From assembly GCA_028753945.1 (NCBI GenBank), contig JAPNXP010000013.1:1426001-1490000 (forward strand): DNA of 64,000 nucleotides, given 5' to 3'. Within the stretch, counting starts at the first letter, position 1. Each line of letters begins with the position of its first letter. The notes under the pieces are model-generated. The model saw only the letters and a program-made list of their open reading frames with translations, searched no databases and was not told where the DNA came from. This DNA is from Hexactinellida sp. DTS-2022. Its lineage: Eukaryota; Porifera; Hexactinellida. This document shows positions 14,355 through 63,788 of this stretch, piece after piece. The translations under genes and the position numbers were made by a program.

Positions 14355-15950
14355 ATGATACTAATTCTATTTGGAATACACTTTGAGCTCTTGCAGACGA
14401 CTAGTTGGAAAAGTTTATACTACTTATGTGGACACAAATTTATCAATTCCAAAATCAGCGAAAAGTATATTTATCTAAAATGTGCAATTTTCTGTATTGG
14501 CTGCAAAGGTATTGGTAGACTCAACCTTGTGACAGATCTTATAACTCCTTTATCACGGCACAATCATAACACTGAATAATACAGATCGGATGTTCTCGAT
14601 TGAAAACGAAATGCAATAAAACTGCAATGCATAGCCAAACAAATCTTCGGCAAGTTTTCAATGATACAACAAGAGGTGATCCCACTGCTTTTGAAGTTAC
14701 ATTTCCCGAATGCGAATCGGCTATGTATCGTGCCAGGAGAAGGTTACAACCGAAGATTCCCTCAGATGCTGTTGAATTTTGCGAAATGATACTTACAGCT
14801 AGTTTAGGAAAATACTACCAAGGTTCAGTGACTTGTGTTACCGACACTGCTGTTATCTTATACTCCGATGCGATGTCTACTGTATTATGTGAGGTTATGC
14901 ATATCAAATTTGATAGTACCTTTTTTAGAGTACCCATTCAATTTACTCAACTCTGGACCATTTTTGTAGCTATTGGCAGGCATTCTTTACCAGCTATCCA
15001 TTGATTGATGACCGCGAAGAGTGAAGAACTATATACAGCTGTGTTAGAAAGGATTAGTTCTAAAATACCTCACTTTAAACCAGTGGCTTCAATGTCGAAT
15101 TGGGAGCCTGCACCAAGGAATGCTTTCAAAGAAGTTTATCCTCAAATTCACATTCACGGATGCTGGTTTCATTTCAGTCAATGTATCTGGAGAAAGACGA
15201 AAAAGCTAGGGCCCACTCACTCTTTCAGAAACAACATCAACGTGGCAACATTTATTCTAACTGATGGCCATAACATTTCTTCCCCCCAATTGATCTACCC
15301 AACATATATCTCACTTAAAGCCCCTAATATTGAAGGTTCTGAGATGAGGAACCTGGAAAAATTGAAAATACTTCAAGAAGCGATGGATCGACCACATTAC
15401 CCCAGAAGATCTCTCTATTAATAATCTGAACATCTCTACTAACAATGCTGCAGAGAGTTACCACTCTAAACTAAAGTCAATCATAAAAAAGCATCGTCCT
15501 AAGATATGGACATTTATTACCACACGCAATAACATCATAGAGGATGTGGATAATGATTTCAGTAGATTACGTTCGGGGCGAGAGATTTGTACCTCAAGTA
15601 AGAAAGTATATGTAAAGACTAAAGAACAGAGAACTTGTAAGGAGAAGCTAAGAGAGGGACTCATGAATCCATTGGAATTCATCAATGCGATTACCCACAT
15701 GATTGGTAAGATGGCTGAATATCCAAATCGAGATACCACTAGCGAGTCTGAGGATGAAGACGGTGACATATCTAAAAGTACTAACGTTTGTGTTGTATGT
15801 CTCCAACCACGTTTAACAACGTGGATATTCATGCCTTGTAGTCACGCAAACTGCTGTACATATTGTAGTGAACAGTTGAAACAATCTGGAGAGACTTGTT
15901 CGATGTGCCGATCTACGACAGAAGATATGTTTAAAATATTCACGAGCTAA
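14355..15950 (+). pseudogene. MULE transposase: FLYWCH + MULE core + C-terminal RING
   Basis: Residues from 14355 give a FLYWCH-type finger (GHKFINSK, KCAIFCIGCKG, HNH). After stops near 14577 the core follows: KTKCNKTA, FDSTFFRVP (first Asp), TIFVAIGRH, then after an in-frame TGA at about 15002 MTAKSEELYTAVLERI, WEPAPRNAFKEV and GCWFHFSQCIW (CxxH). A frameshift near 15380 leads to NNAAESYHSKLKSIIKK (the Glu of the triad). The same frame then runs on without a break into CVVC, MPCSHANCCTYC and CSMC, a C3HC4 RING finger, ending at 15950. RING fingers are usually E3 ubiquitin ligase modules. Because the core's last 60 residues and the RING share one frame, the fusion is real in this copy. Three lesions make it inactive. 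Confidence 0.85.
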
Positions 15951-32462: not shown

Positions 32463-34861
32463 CAGGGTTGGGTTTAAGTACCTTTGAAAGTACTTAAGTA
32501 CAAGTACAAGTACTCCAAAAAATTTCTAGTACAAGTACAATTGAAATGAAAGTACTTAAGTACAATTTTAAGTACTTTTAAAATTTAATGGGAATTAATA
32601 TTGCTGATAGACGATAATTAGTTCTCTACATTCAAACACAACAAATATAGATTAATAATTAAGATCAATCCATATTAGACCTTTGAAACATCAGTGTTTC
32701 AAAAGTTTTGTCAGAAAGATTGTATCTATCTGGACGACAGACCTTTCCAGCGATACTGAAAAGGAGTTCAACAGGAGCAGATGACGCTGGAACTGCTAGA
32801 TGTTTCATTTCTAATACGGCGAGTTTTGGGTATGTATCTGCATGATTTTCCAGAACGCAAGTGGATTAGAGTTTCCTGGTATAGTTGGTTTGAGTAACTA
32901 TTCTCTAAGCTCTGATTCATCCGTGTATATGTTTTCTGTGTCTTCTTCATCTTAATCCATCAACGAAAACAATTTAGTTATTTTTATTTTGTTTTTTCAC
33001 TTTCACACTCTACTACTACTGGGTGGTTTGATTTTTTGTTTTCAATTTTGTACATCTTGGACAATAGTTCACTTTTTCGATGATCTCTTTCATTGCCATC
33101 TTTGTACCACTTCAGTTTAAAACGAGGATCTAATATACTAGCTGTCGTCTATGTATCTTCGGATTCAAAAATGGTAAGTCGACGTTCAACTGATTCTGCA
33201 AGTTCTTTTACTAAGGCGTTAGAATATTTCCTGTGAAGTGTTGACAGTTGACCCCTTATACCTCTTATACATGGGATGACTAAGCTTGAATATACTTTGT
33301 TCTCAATTTGGGCAATATCGGTCGCTTCCTCAAAAGGGGATAGGATTTCCACAAAATCTCTGAGTGTGTTTCGTTCATATGCTGCTAACTTGGCAGTGTT
33401 TTAATTTATCTTGATCAACTTTAACTATTGACTTAATCATTATTAGTTGTGAGTTCCAACGAGTAGGGACGCTTGACTGTAACCTATTCTCACCAATCAG
33501 TACATCTGTGGCAACAGTTGACTTGCGTACATGTGATACGATTGTGGATACCTTCGAAATAACCTTCGAAAAAATATCAGCTATGTTAAAGCCATCCTTT
33601 ACTACAAGCTGAAGTGTATGTGCTAAGCAAGAGTTACGAACTAGATGGAGTAAAGCAAGGGCATCATCTTCTAATTCAAAATTTGGATCACCGTAGTTTT
33701 CAATATCATCTTCACTGTCACTTTGATCGGATTCCTGCTGTAGAGTGTCGAACCCAGGTAGACAAGATGCATTTACCATATTGTCGCTTTGTCAGTAATG
33801 ATGGTCGAGATTTTGTTGTTGATTTCAAGAGAAGCTATCATTTCCTGAAATTTGTCATATATGTTGCAAGCAGAATGTCTGCCTGAGAATCTGTGACGTG
33901 CAACCATTATGGAATTTATATTCCAGTCCAAGATGAATTGACCAGTAATCCCTATATAACTCTTCATCTGTTTGTTTGACCAAAGTTAGTAGTCAGAGCA
34001 ATACTAGAAACTTGTTCAACCTTTTTGGCAATATTTTCGTGGATCTTTCTATATTTTCCCTCTATCAGTTTAGTGGAAAGACATTTGGTATTTAGGGTCC
34101 AACTTGTATATAAAATTTCGAAATCTTGAACTCTCAACAATTGAGAGTGGCAGCAAAATCCCCTGAATAAAATTCACAAGTTCATCAGTAATTTCAAGTT
34201 GATGTAAATCATGATGAGGATACTTTTTATTCGAAGTGGTTAGTAGGTTAAGTTTCAGTTGTTTGTCTTCCGTTGGTTCTTTGAAACTGTAGAGTTCTTC
34301 ATACTTAATATGGTGATTTCGTTTCATATGCTTGATGAAGTTGGATGTCACTTTTAAACAACCTGAAATTTCTTCAGACAATATTTGCATGTCGCTTTGA
34401 AATTCGCATCTAAATTATCCGGTATATCAAAGTGCTTTAATACTTCAGGAAGCTTTCTGCTAGCCATAATTGAGTTTGAAGAAGAGATATCAAAAATCAT
34501 CCTGGAAACCATCTCCAGATACTTATAATATGTGAGATATCCATATAGTGAATATGCGTAGTGAAAAGAAACCTAGTTGTGTTTACGATTGATTCCTACC
34601 ATTGTTTGTTACTTTTATCAAAGATTGTACTGCTTCACTTAATAAATATATCACACATCAAGTATATTCTAGTGAGCTTGCACTGCAATGATCAACAATA
34701 GAAACTATAGTGTTGATCAATAAATTGGCAACAAAGCCAACAATCATTCTAGTTAAGAATAGAAGTTCTAAAAAGTACTTGAAAAAGTACTTGAAAAGTA
34801 ATTTAAATTTCAAGTAGATTTGGAAAGTACTTAAGTACAATTGTACTTGAACCAAACCCTG
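32463..34861 (-). mobile_element. Autonomous-type hAT transposon with (aagtac)n termini, nested
   Basis: The left end cagggttgggtttaagtacc and the right end (reversed, cagggtttggttcaagtac) match. Flanks ctggtgca and atggtgta (32455-32462 and 34862-34869) agree at 6 of 8, an aged target duplication. Just inside each end is an array of aagtac-type hexamers (32478-32580 and 34778-34850). It contains one broken BED-hAT transposase. Confidence 0.82.
32665..34467 (-). pseudogene. BED-finger hAT transposase (ZBED1/ZBED4-like)
   Basis: The ATG at 34467 begins MASRKLPEV. The BED finger follows (CKYCLKKF, then after a shift FIKHMKRNHH). Then come PLSIVESSRFRNFIYKLDP, SYIGITGQFILDW, IITDKATIW (the Asn of the usual TDNASN is changed), the CLAHTLQLVV motif (CxxH), PTRWNSQL (RW), and the C-terminal dimerisation block APVELLFSIAG and DKTFETLMFQRSN, ending at a stop at 32665. 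All hAT landmarks are present in order, over about 600 codons. At least five frameshifts or stops separate the open frames, so it is dead. Confidence 0.88.
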
Positions 34862-35829
34862 ATGGTGTATAATTGAAAAATATTCAGGGACAACTTTAAA
34901 TGTTGCGTCAGCATACCAGTTGCTAGATTGTTTGAGAATTGAAAAGAATCTGGGATTTGAAAAAACTATAATTCTGTTGTGGTCACCATAGCCTGAATCA
35001 TATATTAAGAATGGCTCATCTTTAAGAGTTACTTTGTATTGTTCTGGTATTTGAACTTCTGCAGCACTTGTTGAATTGCCACAGTTCACATCAGAAACGC
35101 TTTTGTAATTTCGGATGGTTCTCTTAACAGAACTTACATTAGGAAGCTTTGCTATAGTTGAGGAGCTCATTGTCGTAATCCCACTAGACACTATCACCCG
35201 GGTACTTTCTTCAGAGTTAATTAGTGTTGTTTGAAAGCATTGTACCCTTTAAGCATATCGATGCGTGCAGGATCTGAGCCATGGTTATGACTAGAGTGTA
35301 TCTCATCGATAAATGTCGGCTTAATTACTTGATTATCTCTAGTATGCAATCCTGCTTTACACACCCCTCTCTTTTCACAAACCCATTGCTCTACATCTTG
35401 TGAAGACTTCGTCAATGTATAAACAAACCCTTCGATAGAGGCTTTCTCTTTTCCTCTAGTACTCCTGATTAATTCTATTGTGAGTGACGTTGACATTGCA
35501 AAATTGTAAAGTGATATTACGAATAATAGTATTTTAGGTTTTGAAGACCATTCTTATGTACTGTGACGGGAATTTTGTATACTTTCGTCAAGATTGTGTG
35601 GCTATTGAAGATTATATACACATTATTTATGTTATGAAACAACAAGATAGTTAATGAGTTTCTGGGCTTCTTAATAATTAGAAAGACCGTGAAGATTAAC
35701 AACATTACTCGAAAATCGACGAGTTTTCGGAGGACGAATTTTCCGTTGGACGAAAATTCCGGGGACAAAAGTTCCAGGGACGAAACTTCCGCCATTCCTT
35801 GTTAATAACGCATTTTTAATATAGCAATA

Positions 35830-37934: not shown

Positions 37935-39617
37935 GTCAATGATTTCTGTGTCAATTGTAATTTCGAGAAATTTCCAAGTTATATTCTTCTTCCTCAGGCT
38001 CTAAATTTAATATTGATTAGATATACTAATCTGAAAATAATTTGCGAAATTATTACCTTCATCATTTTTTTTGTCTTGAACGAAAATCCCCTTGCACTTC
38101 CTGATAAAACTCTTCTTCTTATAGCGATAATTCTTGATTTTGCTAGGATCTCTTGCGTCTGGAGGTATACAATAATTGTCTGATACTCGCTCGCATCCAT
38201 AATAATCGTCAATGTAAAATTTGAAGGCATATATGGGTAACTTCTAGAAACAATAATACAATTAGTTTAAGTAAAATCTTAGAAAGTAGCCATTTATAAG
38301 TAACCGAGATACTAGGGATAGAACACAGATTACACAGAAATGAAGTTGCGACTTTCGGGTCAGAATCCTATGCAACAGGCCTACTACCTTCATTACCTTA
38401 TAGTATTTAACTTTACTTTAATTTAGAAAACTTTATATATTAATTCGGCACCTAAGAGTGTTTTTAATGACGGATTTTTTTGGTAGATCCTTGCAATCTG
38501 ACAGTAACATACTTAAGGAGGCGTCCATTGAAACCATATTTTCGGTATATATGTTGCAGTGTATTAGAAGACTTTGTGTGTTCACGAACACACATGTGTA
38601 TTCGCGAACACACAGTTTTCAAACTTTGTGTGTTCGCGAATACACAATGTTATTGTGTGATGAGTTTTTATTGATTATGGACGCACAAAAATAATTATAT
38701 TCAATAGTTTATGCAATGTATACTGCATAAGCGTGGACTAGGAGTTGGGAATGGCAGGGTCCTTGTGACTCTGACTTAGGTTTGGTTGGCCCACTTTTAT
38801 TTGAAATAACGGAGGATAACTATTGTTAGGGCCATTGGCTCATGACCCTCCCAACCATCCCGGAGCAAACACTTATGATATACAGGTTTACTGCTCATTT
38901 CGATTCAATCTTGTTATATATGTATAAATTTGAATAATATTTAGTTCCTATTCTAAGACGAAGTACGTTCAAATTATTTACAAGTTACATTAAATATTTA
39001 TTCAAGTATGTTTGTCCGGATTGTATTAAAGTGATAGGGAAATAGAAACCGCACTTATAATTGAGATAGAGACAAAGTTCCTAATGTTATAATCGGTAAA
39101 CAAGTATGCTGATCCCGAATTTCGTATTTAGAAATTTCTAATAAAAAAATATGATAGAAACTGGTTATCAAAATTTCGTATCAGCAGTCTTGGCAAATAT
39201 AATTTGGGGCTTAAACATTTTTATTTGAAATACTCATGTTATATTTTATGTGAATGAGTGGAAAACATTGAACTGTGAGGCTCTCAAAATTATCGGATAT
39301 AATTTGACAGATAAATTATGTCATTTGAATCTTCTAACTCAATTTGAAATCGAAAACTGATTTACCCAATAAATTTTAATGCTGCAACAACAACATAATT
39401 TAAGACACAAAAGGACAATTAGCCAAAAATAACGTTACAAGCGCAGAAACATTATGAATTAAGGAATTTGGATGTCGAATTTACCACTTCGATATTAGCA
39501 CGTATTTCGTTATGTCCTTTATTATATCCTATGGTAAATCCTGAATGACACGCTTTTAATTTTTATCCCTCTTCTGGTTGTGCACACCCGTGAAGAACGT
39601 AGATATCCACTTTAGTG
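37935..39617. other. No gene; one palindromic repeat cluster
   Basis: Apart from the tgtgtgttcgcgaacacaca cluster at 38574-38660, I see no coding region. The ORFs at 37905-38230 and 38458-38694 have no family features, though the minus frame at 37994-38230 could be more of the same retroelement. Confidence 0.4.
38574..38660. repeat. Cluster of tgtgtgttcgcgaacacaca palindromes
   Basis: Four half- or full copies of a dyad built on ttcgcgaa flanked by tgtgtg/cacaca lie within 90 bases, alternating in orientation (ttcacgaa, ttcgcgaa, ttcgcgaat). They have no protein frame and could fold or bind a dimeric factor. Confidence 0.75.
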
Positions 39618-39660
39618 AATTAATAACGAGTGTGAAGTTAGCAAAAGATTCAAGTGAGCA

Positions 39661-40698
39661 CACTTCAAACGCCAATTTGACCCACTTATACATGCTCAAT
39701 TGACTTGATCTTTGTTTTGCTTGAAAGAGGGGATAAAGTGGATTAGGAATATCCCATATTTTACACAAAAAGGTGTGAAATTTGTACTTGAAAATTTTAC
39801 ATAAAATTTCCTTTTTTTTTCAAAAAGTGAGCACACTTCAAACGCCAATTTGACCCACTTATACATGCTTAATTGACTTGATCTTTGTTTTGCTTGAAAG
39901 AGGGGATAAAGTGGATTAGGAATATCCCATATTTTACACAAAAAGGTGTGAAATTTGTACTTGAAAATTTTACATAAAATTTCCTTTTTTTTTCAAAAAG
40001 TGAGCACACTTCAAACGCCAATTTGACCCACTTATACATGCTCAATTGACTTGATCTTTGTTTTGCTTGAAAGAGGGGATAAAGTGGATTAGGAATATCC
40101 CATATTTTACACAAAAAGGTGTGTAATTTGTACTTGAAAATTTTACATAAAATTTCCTTTTTTTTTCAAAAGGTGAGCACACTTCAAACGCCAATTTGAC
40201 CCACTTATACATGCTCAATTGACTTGATCTTTGTTTTGCTTGAAAGAGGGGATAAAGTGGATTAGGAATATCCCATATTTTACACAAAAAGGTGTGTAAT
40301 TTGTACTTGAAAATTTTACATAAAATTTCCTTTTTTTTTCAAAAAGTGAGCACACTTCAAACGCCAATTTGACCCACTTATACATGCTCAATTGACTTGA
40401 TCTTTGTTTTGCTTGAAAGAGGGGATAAAGTGGATTAGGAATATCCCATATTTTACACAAAAAGGTGTGTAATTTGTACTTGAAAATTTTACATAAAATT
40501 TCCTTTTTTTTTCAAAAAGTGAGCACACTTCAAACGCCAATTTGACCCACTTATACATGCTCAATTGACTTGATCTTTGTTTTGCTTGAAAGAGGGGATA
40601 AAGTGGATTAGGAATATCCCATATTTTACACCAAAAGGTGTGAAATTTGGACTTGAAAACTTTACATAAAATTTCCTTTTTTTTTCAAAAAGTTTGTT
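39661..40698 (-). repeat. Left terminal array, six 173-bp units
   Basis: Units begin (cacttcaaacgccaattt) at 39661, 39834, 40007, 40180, 40353 and 40526, exactly 173 bp apart. Variants track unit position: the two outermost have gtgaaatttg, the next three gtgtaatttg, and the innermost has gtgaaatttgg. The innermost variant is shared with the innermost unit on the right. The repeated 81-codon ORFs here arise from the tandem array and are not genes. Confidence 0.95.
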
Positions 40699-40922
40699 TA
40701 GAAAATTGTCAATTTTTAATTTGAGCCTACAAATTTATGTAAAAGTGAATTATAGATCTCAAAATGTCATGAATAGATTAGTATTTCCAAATTCTACATT
40801 ATTTGACTTTCCGTAAAGTTCGATACTCAATTGTTGATTAATAAATTCTTCATCACTATTAGATGATTAATGTGTTACTAATTTAACATTGTCTATAACC
40901 GTTGACGTAAAGACATGATGAT

Positions 40923-41018
40923 AGGTTAGTTATGATTACGATTACGATTAGGATAATAGCTAAATTGTGTGATCGATTAAAATTGATGAAGATTGTAATC
41001 GTAATCGGTCCCAACCTG
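40923..41018. mobile_element. Tiny hAT-like MITE, 96 bp
   Basis: The perfect 8-bp flank atgatgat lies at 40915-40922 and 41019-41026. The ends aggttagt...gattacgattacg and (reversed) caggttggg...gattacgattac are inverted copies. It lies in the leader region between the left terminus and exon 1 of the transposase gene. Confidence 0.65.
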
Positions 41019-41167
41019 ATGATGATCCTTGAGTGCTATTTCTTAGTTCACAATTATCACTTCAGTTTTGAAAAATGTATATTATTATCTACAGGTAAAT
41101 AGTTCTGTAGTATAAAACATGGTATACTTTGATTAAAAGACTAATTTTCAACATTCAAATTCAGAGT

Positions 41168-44100
41168 ATGGAAATACCTCCACATAAAAATGGAATCCCA
41201 TTCAACGTCTTCGGTAAGTATACTTTGATTCATTAAAATATGATACAATTTCAAGTCTTTTACTTATGAGTATTTTAATTAACATTACTCGATTTCTTTA
41301 GGGATTTTAGTTAGGAGATAATATTCAATGCGAATATTCATTTAAAGCCAATATTAATTAACTTACAGCCAGTCCATAACATTCGGAATAATTGCGTTTG
41401 CAGTTCGTATTGACAAGCTGCTCCTCTGCGCTCCGCGCGTTAAGACAAACTTGCACTCGGGCCTGCGGCCCTCGCTTGTATTCAAAAGCATATACCTTTT
41501 CAAATACTATGCCAATTGTAATTAAATATTGTGATATTAATGAAAATTTAATGAAAATTATGCATCCCCTCGCCCTATGTCGATACGTTTTTTTCCCATT
41601 TTGTAATAAAAAAACCATCGCGATTAATATATAAGATTATTCGGAAAACAGTGTGTACTTCGTATAATCTACTCGGACGATTGGTTTTTTGTTTAAATCT
41701 TTATTTATAATGTAGTTATATCTACTGCTTACACACTTTTAGATTTACCACCCGATCTACAATGGTTACTTGAATTTATCATTGAGAATACATTTTCTCT
41801 CTCAAGTGCAATGGAACTTCTAAATCAAACTGACTCGCATCCTAACTCTATTTGGGGCAAAATTAGTAATGCTGTAAATGGCCGAAATCGTCCATTGTTG
41901 AGGAAGAAGATTTATCTCAAGTGGGTGAAGAATGTTTCTAAAATTCAGGATTGTGTAAACAAGCATTTTGAGGCTGTTACAATCCACCCTAAACTATCTA
42001 TATTTGTTCCAGCGAATAATAAAGATCGTCCTGAAACTTGTAAAACGGAGCAAGTTCGTCCCGTTTTTATTATTCAACCTCCACAATATTTGCCTATTAA
42101 CGAAGATTTACAAATAAGGTATGAACTCGAACGATTAACTGTACAATTTAGAACATCTCTATTTTCTAAACGTATATTGAAGGATATTAATACCACTACC
42201 GTGAATTCTAATTTGAATTTTGTATCAAATTTAACCCAATTCTTTCGTAAAATAGACCTAAAATGTGTAGAATCGGAGCTAACTAATGATCATCTCTTCA
42301 CTTTATGGGCATCAGGATCATGTGATATAGATTCGTATTTGGATTCTGTTAAAGATGTTAAAAGGCGCCTTAGCGAAAGAGAGATAGATCATGGCGATAA
42401 TCTTGCCTATTTTAATAATTGCGATAGCCAAATTTGGTTCGACGGTATTAAACATTACGAATGTACAAATGAAGAAAATATTCATTTCGACAATGGTTTC
42501 ATATTATTCAAGAAAGATTACATATTCGATGTAATACAAAATTTTGTAAATGTTTTTATTGGAAAATATAAATCGAAGCTATTAGAAAGATCTCAAATAA
42601 TGTCATTATGGCTAATGCACAAAAACATAGATAATCCTAATTATGTTTATTTATGGGGTAAATATTATATCTGGATCACGCAATCTGAAATAGCTAACTT
42701 TATTGGATGGATAAATGGACTAAGAGAGAAAAATGAGATTTTCTATAGAGAAAGATTAAGAAGCGTGTATACTGAAATTCTTACTAAGATCAATAATAAC
42801 TCTGGTTTTCTCCTGGATTCTTCCGAATCAAAATGCATAGATTTAGAAAATCATGAAAGTAATGATTCATGCGTAGAAGTCTCTAACCTAGATCATACCT
42901 CTTTATGTAGTACTGACTTTGATATTTCTTCAAACTCTGCAAATTTATTAGGGTCATCAGATAAATTGGAAATCAATGAAAATGGTGAATTCATTGTAAG
43001 TTTTGAAGAATGGCAAAATATTACATCAACGGATTCCGAAGGTAATACTAAATGTAATCAAAACTGGACCAATATTTTTGCAGAAAAATTACTAGAATGT
43101 GTCCCGTACTGTGTGTTAGTGTTTAAGATTCACTGGTTTAGCAAATTGAATAGTCGTAAACATAACTGTGCTTATTTTCAGGCTCGTGCTTATTGTAAAT
43201 TTGATAACTGCCTTTCATTTCATATTTGTATTCAAGATAGACCAGATCCTTTAAATACTTGGGTTAAGGTTATCTATTCTACCCGAGGGGTGATATCTTC
43301 TCAACATTTTGAAGAAAAAACGGCTCATTCGAGACATCTATCAGGAAATTTGCGCTGTCAGGTCGCTCAAAAATTGGATAATTTTTCCACCAGTAAGTAT
43401 TACTATTCCCAATTTGGCGATCCATTTGAACTTTCTCAATATAAATACGGTAATTTAACTAGCTTAAAATCACAAACATGTTTAAGGAAAGTTAAATCGG
43501 AAACAAGATCTGCAGCACGATTTTCTACTGATCAGTTAGTTGATATTTCAGAAACACGGTCATATTTTTGTCAATTATTACCTGGTAGCTTAATGTCAGG
43601 ATATATACAATACTTTGCTCAACATCCTTTTGTAATACACATGCATACAGAAGAACAGATTAGGTTATTTAATTGTTATAAAAAAGATATTATAGTTCTC
43701 AATTTAGATGCCACTGGATCAATTATCAGTAACCCTTTTCCTGGTTCTACAAGAATATTTTACTATGCCTTAACTCTACAACACCCAAAGTATAAAATGA
43801 GTCCGGTTCCTGTTGCGGAAATGATAAGTAATGACCATACAACAGCTGAAATAACCCATTTCCTATACAGATGGTTTTTAACATGCAAAAAAGTTATTTC
43901 CAAAGACCTAAATATAGCCCAAGTTGAAATGGATTACAGTTGGGCTATTTTACATAGCGCATGTACTGTGTTTAATAAATCTAGCTTGGTTGATTACCTA
44001 GAAAAGTGCTGGCGTATTATCGTCAACAAAGAAGAACTTAATTTGGAACCAGTCCTTCATATTTGTTCAGCACACATAATGCATAGATTTTCTCATCAAA

Positions 44101-45746
44101 TAGCTAAGAAATTCAAGGTTGACAAGAAATTAAAATCATTGATACTGTATGTTTTAGGATCAATGATTTCATGTAAACAAATTTCAAAACTTGATACTTT
44201 GTTCACCTCATTATGCTATGTGCTAGCTAGTGAATTTATTATTCCTTTAGTGAGTGAACATTTGATTGTCCTAGAATCATTAATACAGGGGGAGTATTCC
44301 TTCGATTTGGATGTAGAGGACATTGATAAAGAAAACGAATCCAATGAAAATGCTAAAACATATAAAGAAAAATCGCTATTTGGTCGACATTTTAGTTCCC
44401 TGTGGATTGAATGTATTAATGACATACAGAAATATGAAACATCTATCAAAACCAAATTAAATTTTAATACCTGTTTTAATCCTAATATCTTAAAACATAT
44501 CCTCACTTATTACATGCCATTAGTTCCTTTGTGGAGTGGGCTAATTCTTAATATTATAAAACCTGATAATCATCCTACAGATAGTAATGCACCTGTTGAA
44601 AATTGGTTCAGGATTGTTAAATACAGTATTTTTGATGGCAAACTAAATATTAAAGCTGCAGATTTTATTCGACAAATATATCCAAATATTCAAGAGCGAA
44701 TTGCGGCATTTAGATTTGGCTTTGAGGCTATAGCGAAAAAAGTCTTTGTACCTAAGAAGAGGAAGTTATCACAAGTTATCCCTGAAGAGGAAGTTTGTTA
44801 TGAAAAATGGTCTAAACGAAAGAAATGCAATTCTAGTTATATATACCCTCAGATAAATAAAATTGAGAAAGCATTTGGACAATTTCCCACAAAACGACAT
44901 TGTAGCAAGGTGACTAAAAGGTTTGTAAAAGACCAACTAGAAAATACCTTGCAACATTGCAATAATTCATTAATGTCCAATCTAAATAAAAGAACACCTA
45001 GTTTGAATTCACCCAAAGATAATGTACTTGTACTTTACAAGGAAGATCGAAGTGATATTTCTTCTTTCAAACTACCTATCCAAGATGTCAATATTATATC
45101 GGATTGTGATTTAGTTGAAATTTCAATTGACTATAGCATACTACCTCCATTTCATCCTGTAACACCATTATGGCAAAGTAACATGTGTAAAGATCTTAAG
45201 CTCAATATGGTAAATGGTATAGAATATAATTCAAACAATGGTAACAACAATATTAATCTACAAGTATGTAGTCCTTGCAGGTATAAAACAATTGCAGGAG
45301 ATGGGAATTGTCTATTTTCATCATTATGTTATTGGATAACTGGCAGTGTTGATGACCAAACGACAGTACGCAATATAATAGTCAATAATATGGTAGGGAA
45401 GTATAGGGATGTCTGCTATAATTATATTAAAAACAAGTATCCAGTCACAGTCAGTGGTTTCAGAAGTACCATAGATTACGTAAATAAAATCAGAATGAGA
45501 AGAGACAGAATATGGGGAACTGATACTGAATTGTTTTCCGCGGCCTTAATTTTCCAAACTGATATTTGGGTCTATTCAGTTGGAAACAAATGGGAAATAT
45601 TCTCAGGATCAGGGAAAAGTATAGGTGAAGTGATACAATCACCACCATCTAACTATTTAGGGAGTATATACATTCATTACACAGGAAATCATTATGAACC
45701 CATTCTAGGAGTAGTAAAGACAGTTAATACTTACTCTAGCATCTAA
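41168..45746 (+). CDS. Transposase (DDE type, CxxH) fused to a C-terminal OTU cysteine protease, two exons
   Basis: The long open frame 41811-45746 continues in frame upstream to a splice acceptor at 41742. Exon 1 (41168-41213) encodes MEIPPHKNGIPFNVF and ends at a consensus donor (g/gtaagt); the join is in frame, giving about 1349 residues. Residues 1-640 are unrecognised. A transposase core follows: LNLDATGS (Asp about 671), EMDYSW (Asp about 746), CSAHIMHRF (about 790) and NAPVENWF (Glu about 968). A basic KKRKLSQV-like linker may be a nuclear signal. The C-terminus (about 1195-1340) is an OTU fold: AGDGNCLFSSL with catalytic Cys about 1205, and NHYEP with His about 1332. OTU proteases remove ubiquitin from proteins. 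There are no stops or shifts, so it looks functional. It is the only gene in the element. Confidence 0.88.
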
Positions 45747-46084
45747 ATTATGTAATTGGTACTTTAGTGGGAATTTGTATAGTTTATACAGTTCTATGCA
45801 TATTATTAGTCTCTATTATCATTATTAGTTATTATTCTTATTAAATGTTGTTTAATAAATTAATATGAATTAACTTAGTATTTCAAATTGTATCGAATGG
45901 GATCTATAAATTCTGAAAGTCTTAGATTTACAATTGTAAGTGAATAAGTAGGAAAAACTAAATTAAACTTTAAATTATCAGAGGTAGTTGAAATACTGAT
46001 CTATTCATGACATTTTGAGATCTATAATTCACTTTTACATAAATTTGTAGGCTCAAATTAAAAATTGACAATTTTCTAAACAAA

Positions 46085-46634
46085 CCTTTTTGAAAAAAAA
46101 AGGAAATTTTATGTAAAATTTTCAAAGTCCAAATTTCACACCTTTTTGTGTAAAATATGGGATATTCCTAATCCACTTTATCCCCTCTTTCAAGCAAAAC
46201 AAAGATCAAGTCAATTGAGCATGTATAAGTGGGTCAAATTGGCGTTTGAAGTGTGCTCACTTTTTGAAAAAAAAAGGAAATTTTATGTAAAATTTTCAAG
46301 TACAAATTACACACCTTTTTGTGTAAAATATGGGATATTCCTAATCCACTTTATCCCCTCTTTCAAGCAAAACAAAGATCAAGTCAATTGAGCATGTATA
46401 AGTGGGTCAAATTGGCGTTTGAAGTGTGCTCACTTTTTGAAAAAAAAAGGAAATTTTATGTAAAATTTTCAAGTACAAATTACACACCTTTTTGTGTAAA
46501 ATATGGGATATTCCTAATCCACTTTATCCCCTCTTTCAAGCAAAACAAAGATCAAGTCAATTGAGCATGTATAAGTGGGTCAAATTGGCGTTTGAAGTGT
46601 GCTCACTTGAATCTTTTGCTAACTTCACACTCGT
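46085..46634 (+). repeat. Right terminal array, three 173-bp units, inverted to the left array
   Basis: There are three units on the plus strand followed by the same end (cttgaatcttttgctaactt...cactcgt). The innermost unit carries the aaagtccaaatttcacacc variant that matches the innermost left unit, while the outer two match left units three to five. Confidence 0.95.
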
Positions 46635-46931
46635 AATTAATATACCTTATTTTAGGAAGTTAATTTCCTTCGGGTTGATTTCCTGCAAATTGATAGTATT
46701 TAGCAAATGTATATACGTACAATCGATGTGCAAACTTCTAAGCTACATTTTTCCAACTAGGTTGAGAGGATATACCATGCCTATCAAGTAGATTATAATC
46801 CTATTTTGGGACAAGAAATACTATTTAATCAGGAGATTAACTATTTTGAAGATTTTTCTAAAATTTATTCAAGTTAATTTCGTGTACTTGAGAATGTTTT
46901 GCTCCAAATCGTGTTTATTTTCTATAATAAG

Positions 46932-60885: not shown

Positions 60886-60888
60886 TTG

Positions 60889-63788
60889 ATGCCTAACCAG
60901 TGCTCCGCACCTGGATGTCGTGGTAATTACCGTGGTGAGCCATACACACCAGTTTTTAAACTTCCAACTGACCCACCAGAACTACGTCATCAATGGCTAA
61001 GAGCACTTCATCGAGTGGACATTGAAAATCTTAAACATGTATATGTTTGCCAACTTCACTTTCACCCCGAGGATATTGTCACTGTAGACAAAATTTTGCA
61101 AGCTGACGGAAGTGTCACCGAAAAGTTGCGAGAAAGGTCAAAACTTCGTCCAAATGCAGTGCCTTCTCTCTTACCAGGATGCCCACCATATCTTTCAACA
61201 GCGTCTCTGGACAGACCCACTCGGCTTACACGAGAATCAAAAGAAGGACAACAATTTGCACAAGCTCTCCAACTAAGCCTCGAGCAACAAAAACGGGAGG
61301 ATTTAAGGTTTAGAGTCGACGATTTCCAAGACCTAATTTCGAAGATATCATCTCTTAATTTACCTGATAATTGGATGGTTTGGCATTCTGAGCTCGATAC
61401 TATTCACATCTATCAGCCCGAACTATCAGGTATGGCTTTGAAGGTAAAATATTGTTTGACAATAAGTAATAACCTTAGTGTCTTGGCATTTCGTGATAAT
61501 ATTGCTGTTCCTCTTGCACTCAACTTCTTATCAGATACCCGACAAGTAGAAACTTTTTTGAACGAAATTACAGAAGTACGTACACCAGACACCATATCTA
61601 GTAACCTGAATTCATTTGAATATAACATTAAACAAGCTTCAAATCAAATCAAATTACTCTTTCTATTAGTGCATTATACACGCAATTTCCAGACTTAATC
61701 AATGACGATGATCCCGAAAATTCTCATAAATTATCTCAACTTCAATTTATTGAATGCCAATTAAATAATTTTCTTGTCAATAAGAAGAGGAAGAGATATA
61801 ATGTTATTACCCAAGTTATGGCATTAAAAGCTCATCTCATATCTCCAGCGTGCTACAGATATTTACAATCTCTAGGATGTATATCCTTACCGCATCCAAG
61901 AACCCTACAGAAACTCTATTCAAACTTTGGTTTAGAAAGCGATTTTCTAGCATTTCTTAAGCAAGCGACTTCAGACTTTAGTGATAGAGACCGCAATGTA
62001 ATTTTACAAATGGACGAGATACATGTCAAGTCCACCGTTGCTTATAAGGGAGGAAGAATAATCGGATATTCCATGTTACCTAATGAACCAATTAAAACTG
62101 TTTTCGCTATAATGGTATCAAGCTTGTCCAGAAAGTGGTCGCAAATTGTCCGCCTAATTCCATGTTCTTCTAACTCTGCTGACGAGATATTTGCAGTTGT
62201 CAAATCTGTTATTTGTGATGTAGAATGTTGTGGTCTGACAGTGCAAGTCATCTGCACTGACAACTATCCACTTAACGTTAGTTTTTTCAAATTATTTTCG
62301 ACAGATAACAAGACTTTATCTCCTACCGTGATTCACCCCAATGATCCAGAAAGAAAACTCTTTTTAATCTTCGATTTCGTGCACATAATTAAATCAATTA
62401 GAAACAATTGGCTCAATTTAAAAGATTACGAGCGTGCCTTTGCCTACCCAAATGCGTTAATTTTTCCTAACTTTGACGACACACACAAAGTAAATATTGC
62501 TCAATTCCAAGATGTTCGATTACTTTACAAAAATGAGCAAACTTCGGTCCTCAAACAGGCACATCGCTTAACAGCAAAGGCTTGTTGGCCCACTATTTTA
62601 GAAAGACAAAATGTCAACCTGGCTTTGAAAATATTTGATACATCAACACTTACAGCTCTATCAATTTACAACTCTAAGCGAACAGACTTTGAATCCCGCA
62701 AGACATGCGAATTTCTAGACATTATTATAAAAGTTTGGAAGATATTCAATATAAATACTACACATAAACACATACGACTTAATGATGAGCTTTCAAGACC
62801 TCTTTACTATAATGATGAACGTTTCAATTTCCTCAGGCTCATTATCAACTGGCTTGCACGTTGGAGATCTCGTGAGGGTAAATATGGAAAATTAAGTCCT
62901 CAGACATTTACTAGCTTTTCCCATTCATGTCTAGCGCTGATCGAAATCATAAATCATCTCACTCATAACTGTGGTTTTGATTATGTACTTACATCACGAT
63001 TACAGAATGACCCGATTGAACATCACTTTGGGTTGTATCGTATTATGTCAGGTGCACAATATCATATCACTTTTACTCAAATACTTGAAAGCGAACGCCG
63101 TATTAAACTATCAAGCATACTGAAGAGTTTCTCAAAAAAAACCGAATCGGATTACGTGAATCTAAAAGGTATAATCGAATCCTTTTCCTTACCACCTGAT
63201 GAACCATCAAATTCATTAAATTTAGACACATATCTCCTAGCAATGGAATCTTTTCCGACCCTCGCACTGGAAACTTCACTGCTTCAATCAATCGCCTTTG
63301 TAGGAGGTTATGCAGTCCATACTTATTTCAAACAATCTACTAAGTGCAAAGCTTGTTTGTCCTTGCTGACACAGGATAAAGAGCTAGAGATTGTGGATGA
63401 AAAGGATACTTACAAATTCATTCAGCTTATCGATCGAGGTGCCCTCAAATGGCCATCACATATTGTGATAGATGCTATTATTATTGTTTTGAAGATCTAT
63501 ATAACAATAGAAGGTGATTCTAACTTGATGCAGCAGTTTTTGGCAGGACCTTCAAGAATGCTATTAATACAACTCGCTATTACATACATAGAGGATACAC
63601 AATGTGTCAGCTGGAGAAATACGTGCGGATCTTGTAATCAACAAGGATGGACTATACTCCGTAAAATCACATCAATTGCAGCAAACTGTATTCTAGCCAA
63701 TAAAGTCCGGAATGTTAACTCAAGACTCCGAGAACTTGCAATTTCAAATAGTGAAAATCGCCAAATTAAAAAATTCAAGTATTCATAA
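60889..63788 (+). pseudogene. THAP/P-element-like transposase, nearly intact, one frameshift
   Basis: The start is the ATG at 60889 (MPNQCSAPGC). The THAP finger is complete: Cys5, Cys10, Cys54, His57 and AVPSLLP. The first frame ends at 61698. Slipping by one base near 61640 (in a caaatcaaatcaaa run) gives ALYTQFPDLINDDDPENSH, which runs without further stops into the second frame to 63788, giving about 965 residues in all. In the 61818-63788 part the RNase-H-like core is visible: LQMDEIHVK (Asp66), CTDNYPLN (Asp148), FDFVHIIKSIRNNWL (Asp186) and NDPIEHHFGL (Glu about 401). A single indel in a short repeat could be a sequencing error, a young mutation or an unrecognised intron. P elements cut themselves out and reinsert using GTP. 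It is the best-preserved P-type copy here. Confidence 0.88.

Follow-up and report, generated by a model that had tools for sequence, protein, structure and literature searches.

The 64,000-nucleotide stretch of contig JAPNXP010000013.1 from the hexactinellid sponge Hexactinellida sp. DTS-2022 (hereafter the window) contains a transposon of 7,009 bp at positions 39626-46634. This is probably a recently active cut-and-paste transposon with foldback-type ends, target-site duplications of 8-9 bp and a Mutator/foldback-like (D-D-CxxH-E) transposase that carries an intact-looking C-terminal OTU deubiquitinase. The union of a transposase with a ubiquitin-directed protease is a known kind of fusion, to which the element adds a foldback-like variant. 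The features of the element are collected in Table 1.

The limits of the element are exact, as originally predicted, given its shared 31-base ends and the duplication on its flanks. The 31-base end ACGAGTGTGAAGTTAGCAAAAGATTCAAGTG starts at 39626 and, inverted, at 46634, and an inverted end match of this type was found in 0 of 100 shuffles. The predicted 8-bp duplication, AATTAATA, is perfect on both flanks. The long inverted termini of the element, also anticipated, form arms of 553 nt with 97% complementarity and are composite. The left terminus consists of an outer end of ~28 bp, six 173-bp tandem repeats (~39654-40691) and an inner inverted stretch that reaches 40787; the right terminus consists of an inner inverted stretch, three 173-bp repeats (~46088-46608) and an outer end of ~26 bp. 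The inner inverted arms, which extend ~100 bp beyond the repeats, pair 40668-40787 with 45990-46109 at 94%. These composite termini are a foldback-type layout; the Drosophila foldback element FB-NOF likewise has repeat-array termini, a likeness drawn by description only. The label 'MULE-NOF' appears in PMC12220107. No Rfam family matched within the window at the gathering threshold.

The element is real, young and multi-copy, and it has recently moved. A 2-kb coding probe (40 of 92 candidates scored) identified at least 46 matching pieces in the genome, at least eight of which, on seven contigs, are near-identical, matching all or the greater part of the probe at 98-100% identity. The terminal 31-mer, allowing up to two mismatches, occurs 25 times in the genome, whereas the reversed control gave 0 matches. 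Sorted by strand and location, the 25 ends make nine pairs spaced 4.5-8.2 kb and seven single ends. Target duplications are perfect in all seven pairs of termini with both flanks read, measuring 8 bp in four copies (window, C7, C4 and C15) and 9 bp in three (C6, C16 and C2); this count leaves out the pairs at C1:5242223 and C1:2485293, L013 and L015 with one terminus each, L017 without a matching terminus, and L016, in which no open reading frame (ORF) of 150 amino acids was found. Inverted termini whose flanking duplications scarcely vary in length from copy to copy mark the element as a cut-and-paste transposon. The locus is neither single-copy nor bounded by diverged ends, and the near-identical copies, perfect duplications and related empty sites bear out the original view of the element as young and perhaps active.

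The C7 copy differs from the window copy at 2 of 3,879 coding bases, both amino-acid changes. Its open frame of 1,305 amino acids has a slightly different tail with the OTU in place, and its left terminus has about three fewer repeats; besides the window copy, it is the only full-frame member of this family that was translated, and it too keeps the OTU. Since the ORF of the C4 copy (1,181 amino acids) begins with TTG and five of the eight near-identical copies are broken into shorter frames, two of the eight are open from the first ATG through the end of the OTU.

Mobility is supported by the duplications and by related empty sites. When the window flanks were joined without the element and without one duplication (40 of 337 candidates scored), the joined sequence matched other places uninterrupted across the junction in 6 of 38 listed rows, its own two flanks excluded, at 80-88% identity. 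Three of these sites, fetched in part and aligned, each carry a single AAT(G/T)AATA and nothing additional at the junction, although 41 more bases stand ~20 bases to the right of it in two of the three. The target of the insertion was therefore a copy of an interspersed repeat older than the element. The flanks in question are 39368-39625 and 46643-46892, and the right half alone matches ~30 more listed places, mostly at 75-82%.

The transposase-OTU ORF is the longest among the 13 listed ORFs of at least 130 amino acids in the window. An unbroken frame of about 1349 residues had been claimed, which is true of the stop-to-stop frame (1,349 residues) and also of a predicted two-exon model with GT..AG borders (41168-41213 joined to 41743-45743); the agreement of the two lengths is a coincidence. 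In family B, a sister lineage represented by L020, a similar acceptor lies upstream of the homologous start ELPAEI. Within the predicted intron, a patch at ~41420-41490 is GC-rich and contains the short palindromes gcgctccgcgcg and gggcctgcggccc, and its surroundings are AT-rich.

The predicted core motifs LNLDATGS (D633), EMDYSW (D708), CSAH (C752/H755) and NAPVENWF (E930) are all present and are nearly invariant in relatives. In a 21-row alignment, with fractions taken over the rows with a letter at the site, D708, C752 and H755 are each kept in 21/21 rows and D633 in 20/21, and around the last acid N926 is kept in 19/19, E930 in 18/19 and W932 in 20/20. The motif order is D-D-CxxH-E, with N..(V/I)E.W around the last acid and a spacing of 222 residues between D708 and E930. 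The first residues of the linker that follows the core, PKKRK (residues 981-985), form a possible nuclear signal.

The C-terminal domain is matched by Pfam PF02338 over residues 1163-1295 (E 1.4e-6; 29.3 bits against a cut-off of 23.3), and the predicted structure and fold comparison also identify it as an OTU, with viral OTUs among the nearest folds. Residues D1164, C1167 and H1294 are invariant in nine of nine aligned OTU domains, in which the lowest pair identity is 27%. The catalytic role of Asp1164 is one that we presume from viral OTUs. In the one pair compared, omega is ~0.05 for the OTU part. A phmmer search with the OTU part alone matched Kit kinases (E 0.05-0.4), which were taken as chance, and one viral OTU (E 0.085). 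A transposase that carries an OTU fold with both catalytic residues, as originally proposed, is supported by profile, predicted structure and conservation, and the fused domain probably removes ubiquitin.

Homologues that join the transposase core to an OTU exist in other lineages; with the OTU of C7 and a multi-copy locus whose ends have not diverged, no outcome originally named as refuting was observed. A search with a 353-amino-acid core query (115 of 651 candidates scored) found at least 120 core matches in the genome at 36-100% identity, many in long open frames. Among these are five stop-free frames of 1,251-1,260 amino acids in family B (~48% identity) and seven frames of exactly 1,255 amino acids in family D (~43% identity). 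The element is one of a large group whose examined members retain the OTU, and the retention of the core-OTU fusion in divergent relatives suggests that the element needs a deubiquitinase-type enzyme. In viral contigs, nine pattern matches were obtained and none was confirmed, using one query sequence that reaches close relatives only. The first exon of family B (L020:2280-2499) encodes, by eye, a hydrophobic stretch and then GIEINPGP ahead of the transposase, which, by the 2A consensus, resembles a 2A ribosome-skipping or signal sequence; no NPGP motif was found in the window, L009 or L029. The 112-Mb genome also contains at least 150 PF02338 OTU matches (440 candidates), many in ORFs of ~226-228 amino acids that recur on many contigs and do not adjoin the transposase core described here; they may represent a further repeat family with an OTU.

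Several results weigh against the reading given at the outset. Two of the 21 core rows have each lost one of the conserved acids (L043 at D633 and L042 at E930). The profile checks proposed with the original prediction were positive for the OTU part and negative for the transposase part: no Pfam transposase family was found in the window protein or in any of 12 members, and the core profile matched no solved structure among PDB sequences. Profile comparison by hhalign with Mutator-like proteins of the same genome gave probabilities of 0.6 percent (A8 against L052) and 0.1 percent (A3 against L053), with thin profiles on both occasions (Neff, the effective number of sequences, 2.1 and 2.7). The omega values come from a single pair, for which the counts of changes within the OTU part are 16 and 3. 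Between the window and C7 copies there is no silent change beside the two amino-acid changes, and the empty sites belong to paralogous members of the repeat that received the insertion, not to alleles. A PHROGs search gave a match at E 0.15 only, and FadR_C, LMF1 and four other single-member Pfam matches among the 12 members were taken as chance.

Nevertheless, by eye, L053, a PF10551 match, has D, D, CxxH and NAIEAWH, resembling the motif order and last-acid motif of the element. The CxxH between the second D and E, as in Mutator-like cores, is kept in 21/21 rows (C752 and H755); this Mutator-like feature is also common to hAT-type cores, so it is not decisive for membership. Target duplications of Mutator-like elements measure 8-11 bp in the table of one survey (PMC6446971), a range that includes the 8-9 bp of the element. 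No FLYWCH family was found at E 1 in the 12 members, and the Phantom listing of the same survey includes some members without FLYWCH (PMC6446971). The ends, duplication length and motif order only narrow the superfamily, which was not recognised originally, to Mutator/foldback-like, and the profile searches did not confirm this. As the likeness is seen by eye but the profile searches are negative, we liken the mode of action of the element to that of a Mutator/foldback transposon and assign it to no superfamily. Kyakuja-Dileera-Zisupton (KDZ) elements were rejected, with no PF18758 match in the 12 members at E 1 and with the seven KDZ matches of the genome at other places. Mutator-like transposases are very abundant in this genome; PF10551 gives 961 candidates, and all 150 of the 150 scored were above the curated cut-off.

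The missing Pfam, PDB and hhalign matches would also be expected if the core were a superfamily of its own that resembles Mutator/foldback elements only in duplication length and ends. Foldback-like ends do occur in other classes, for example in Galileo, which is classed with P elements (PMC3573991), and we regard this alternative as possible but clearly the less probable one, since Mutator-like L053 shows, by eye, a similar order of motifs and a similar N..(V/I)E.W around its last acid, and duplications of 8-9 bp fit Mutator-like groups (PMC6446971, PMC3169594). Membership of Ginger1 is very improbable. Ginger1 has the same domain order, a DDE transposase followed by a C-terminal OTU (or Ulp1) protease, and is multi-copy, for example in Hydra, but it has a Gypsy-integrase-type core and, in its published table, elements of 2.6-7.1 kb with termini of 44-270 bp; the Ginger abstract describes a Gypsy-type zinc finger, a DDE domain and a GPY/F motif (PMC2836005). 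The present element instead has a CxxH between the second D and E, which stand 222 residues apart (D708 and E930), and its termini measure ~650-1,160 bp and contain foldback arrays. Ginger1 was accordingly rejected on domain content, as no integrase or zinc-finger Pfam family, Gypsy-type or other, was found at E 1 in any of the 12 members, in searches by HMMER, whose filters can miss very weak matches.

With a Mutator/foldback-like transposon as the preferred reading, the following course of transposition may be proposed. The transposase-OTU protein would enter the nucleus and, by analogy with known families, would bind the 173-bp repeat arrays at both ends, where its DDE core would excise the element and join it to a target site opened by cuts staggered by 8-9 bp. 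The OTU may strip ubiquitin either from the transposase or from other proteins gathered where the DNA is cut, by which the complex would be spared degradation or repair would be steered. The fusion of OTU to core suggests that the substrate is part of the transposon complex, and the transposase is the simplest candidate. The main rival to this placement of the substrate, to which we give appreciably less credence, is that the OTU plays an anti-defence part by acting on host proteins, countering ubiquitin-dependent silencing or DNA-damage signalling. Viral OTUs, which are host-directed, are among its nearest folds. In a paper devoted to a different family of deubiquitinases, enzymes carried by transposons are speculated to be of possible help in overcoming limits on transposon inheritance (PMC9741609); a permanent fusion to the transposase nonetheless favours a substrate at the complex. 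It is improbable that the OTU lacks protease activity and is carried along in a structural or ubiquitin-binding capacity. A 2022 paper does state that the viral and transposon OTU domains under its discussion had not been tested (PMC9741609), but Asp1164, Cys1167 and His1294 are invariant across domains that diverge to 27% identity, and the low omega of the one pair points the same way. A bolder reading, which we consider rather unlikely, holds that the element represents a large, still active superfamily with a core of no described superfamily, in which the deubiquitinase is obligatory in the transposase; an OTU that looks catalytically intact is retained in all lineages checked, and ubiquitin removal would then be a step of transposition.

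Among other known systems, Phantom and Tm1, which are foldback-like Mutator elements, share duplications of 8-10 bp with the element (PMC6446971, PMC3169594), and Tm1 also has composite termini with an internal repeat in varying number (PMC3169594). Phantom differs in the FLYWCH finger ascribed to the N-terminal part of its transposases (PMC6446971). Rehavkus has 9-bp duplications, termini of 26-400 bp and a minisatellite before the 3' end but is described with a PHD finger, a comparison made by description only (PMC6446971). Helentrons encode a transposon protein with an OTU and/or VTD deubiquitinase-type domain but are rolling-circle Rep-helicase elements (PMC9741609, PMC6431247). The word 'OTU' is absent from the main texts of the Mutator-like survey (PMC6446971), the Tm1 paper (PMC3169594) and a 2026 arthropod survey (PMC13359780). 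Among the literature matches listed, none describes a transposase of Mutator-like, foldback or hAT type with an OTU; a record may exist in Repbase. A transposition enzyme joined to a ubiquitin- or SUMO-directed protease is thus found in Ginger1, in Helentrons, in Ulp1-bearing Mutator elements of plants and, as seen here, in a foldback-like group. The role of such a protease in transposition is a question raised in 2010 by the Ginger paper, whose authors suggest that OTU/Ulp1 act in repair after transposition (PMC2836005). Because this genome has a young family of which two open copies are nearly identical, and also sister lineages whose frames are complete, the need for deubiquitination in transposition is directly addressable.

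Table 1. Coordinates of the element and its parts in the window.
Feature	Position	Strand	Remarks
Left target-site duplication, AATTAATA	39618..39625	.	Single AAT(G/T)AATA at three related empty sites
Left terminal inverted repeat	39626..40787	+	Arms I1, I9; repeat family D1
Predicted exon 1 (MEIPPHKNGIPFNVF..)	41168..41213	+	GTAAGT donor at 41214; joined frame 1,349 amino acids
Predicted intron, GTAAGT...TTTTAG	41214..41742	+	Sequence prediction
Transposase-OTU ORF	41811..45746, stop included	+	1,311 amino acids from first ATG
DDE-like core, D633 to E930	43707..44600	+	D633, D708, C752xxH755, E930 in 1,311-amino-acid numbering
Linker, core to OTU	44751..45170	+	Residues 981-1120, read from translation
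OTU cysteine protease domain	45297..45695	+	Residues 1163-1295; D1164, C1167, H1294; Pfam PF02338
Right terminal inverted repeat	45990..46634	-	Inverted-arm analysis, shared 31-base end
Right target-site duplication, AATTAATA	46635..46642	.	

Other traces of transposons were observed in the window. At 60886-63788, adjoining ORFs of 270 and 656 amino acids resemble, by eye, a THAP finger and a P-element/THAP9-type transposase, and this pair is perhaps a nearly complete second element. The broken ORFs at 14600-15421 and 34658-35197 resemble, by eye, Phantom-type Mutator transposases, the latter with 34% identity to L053.
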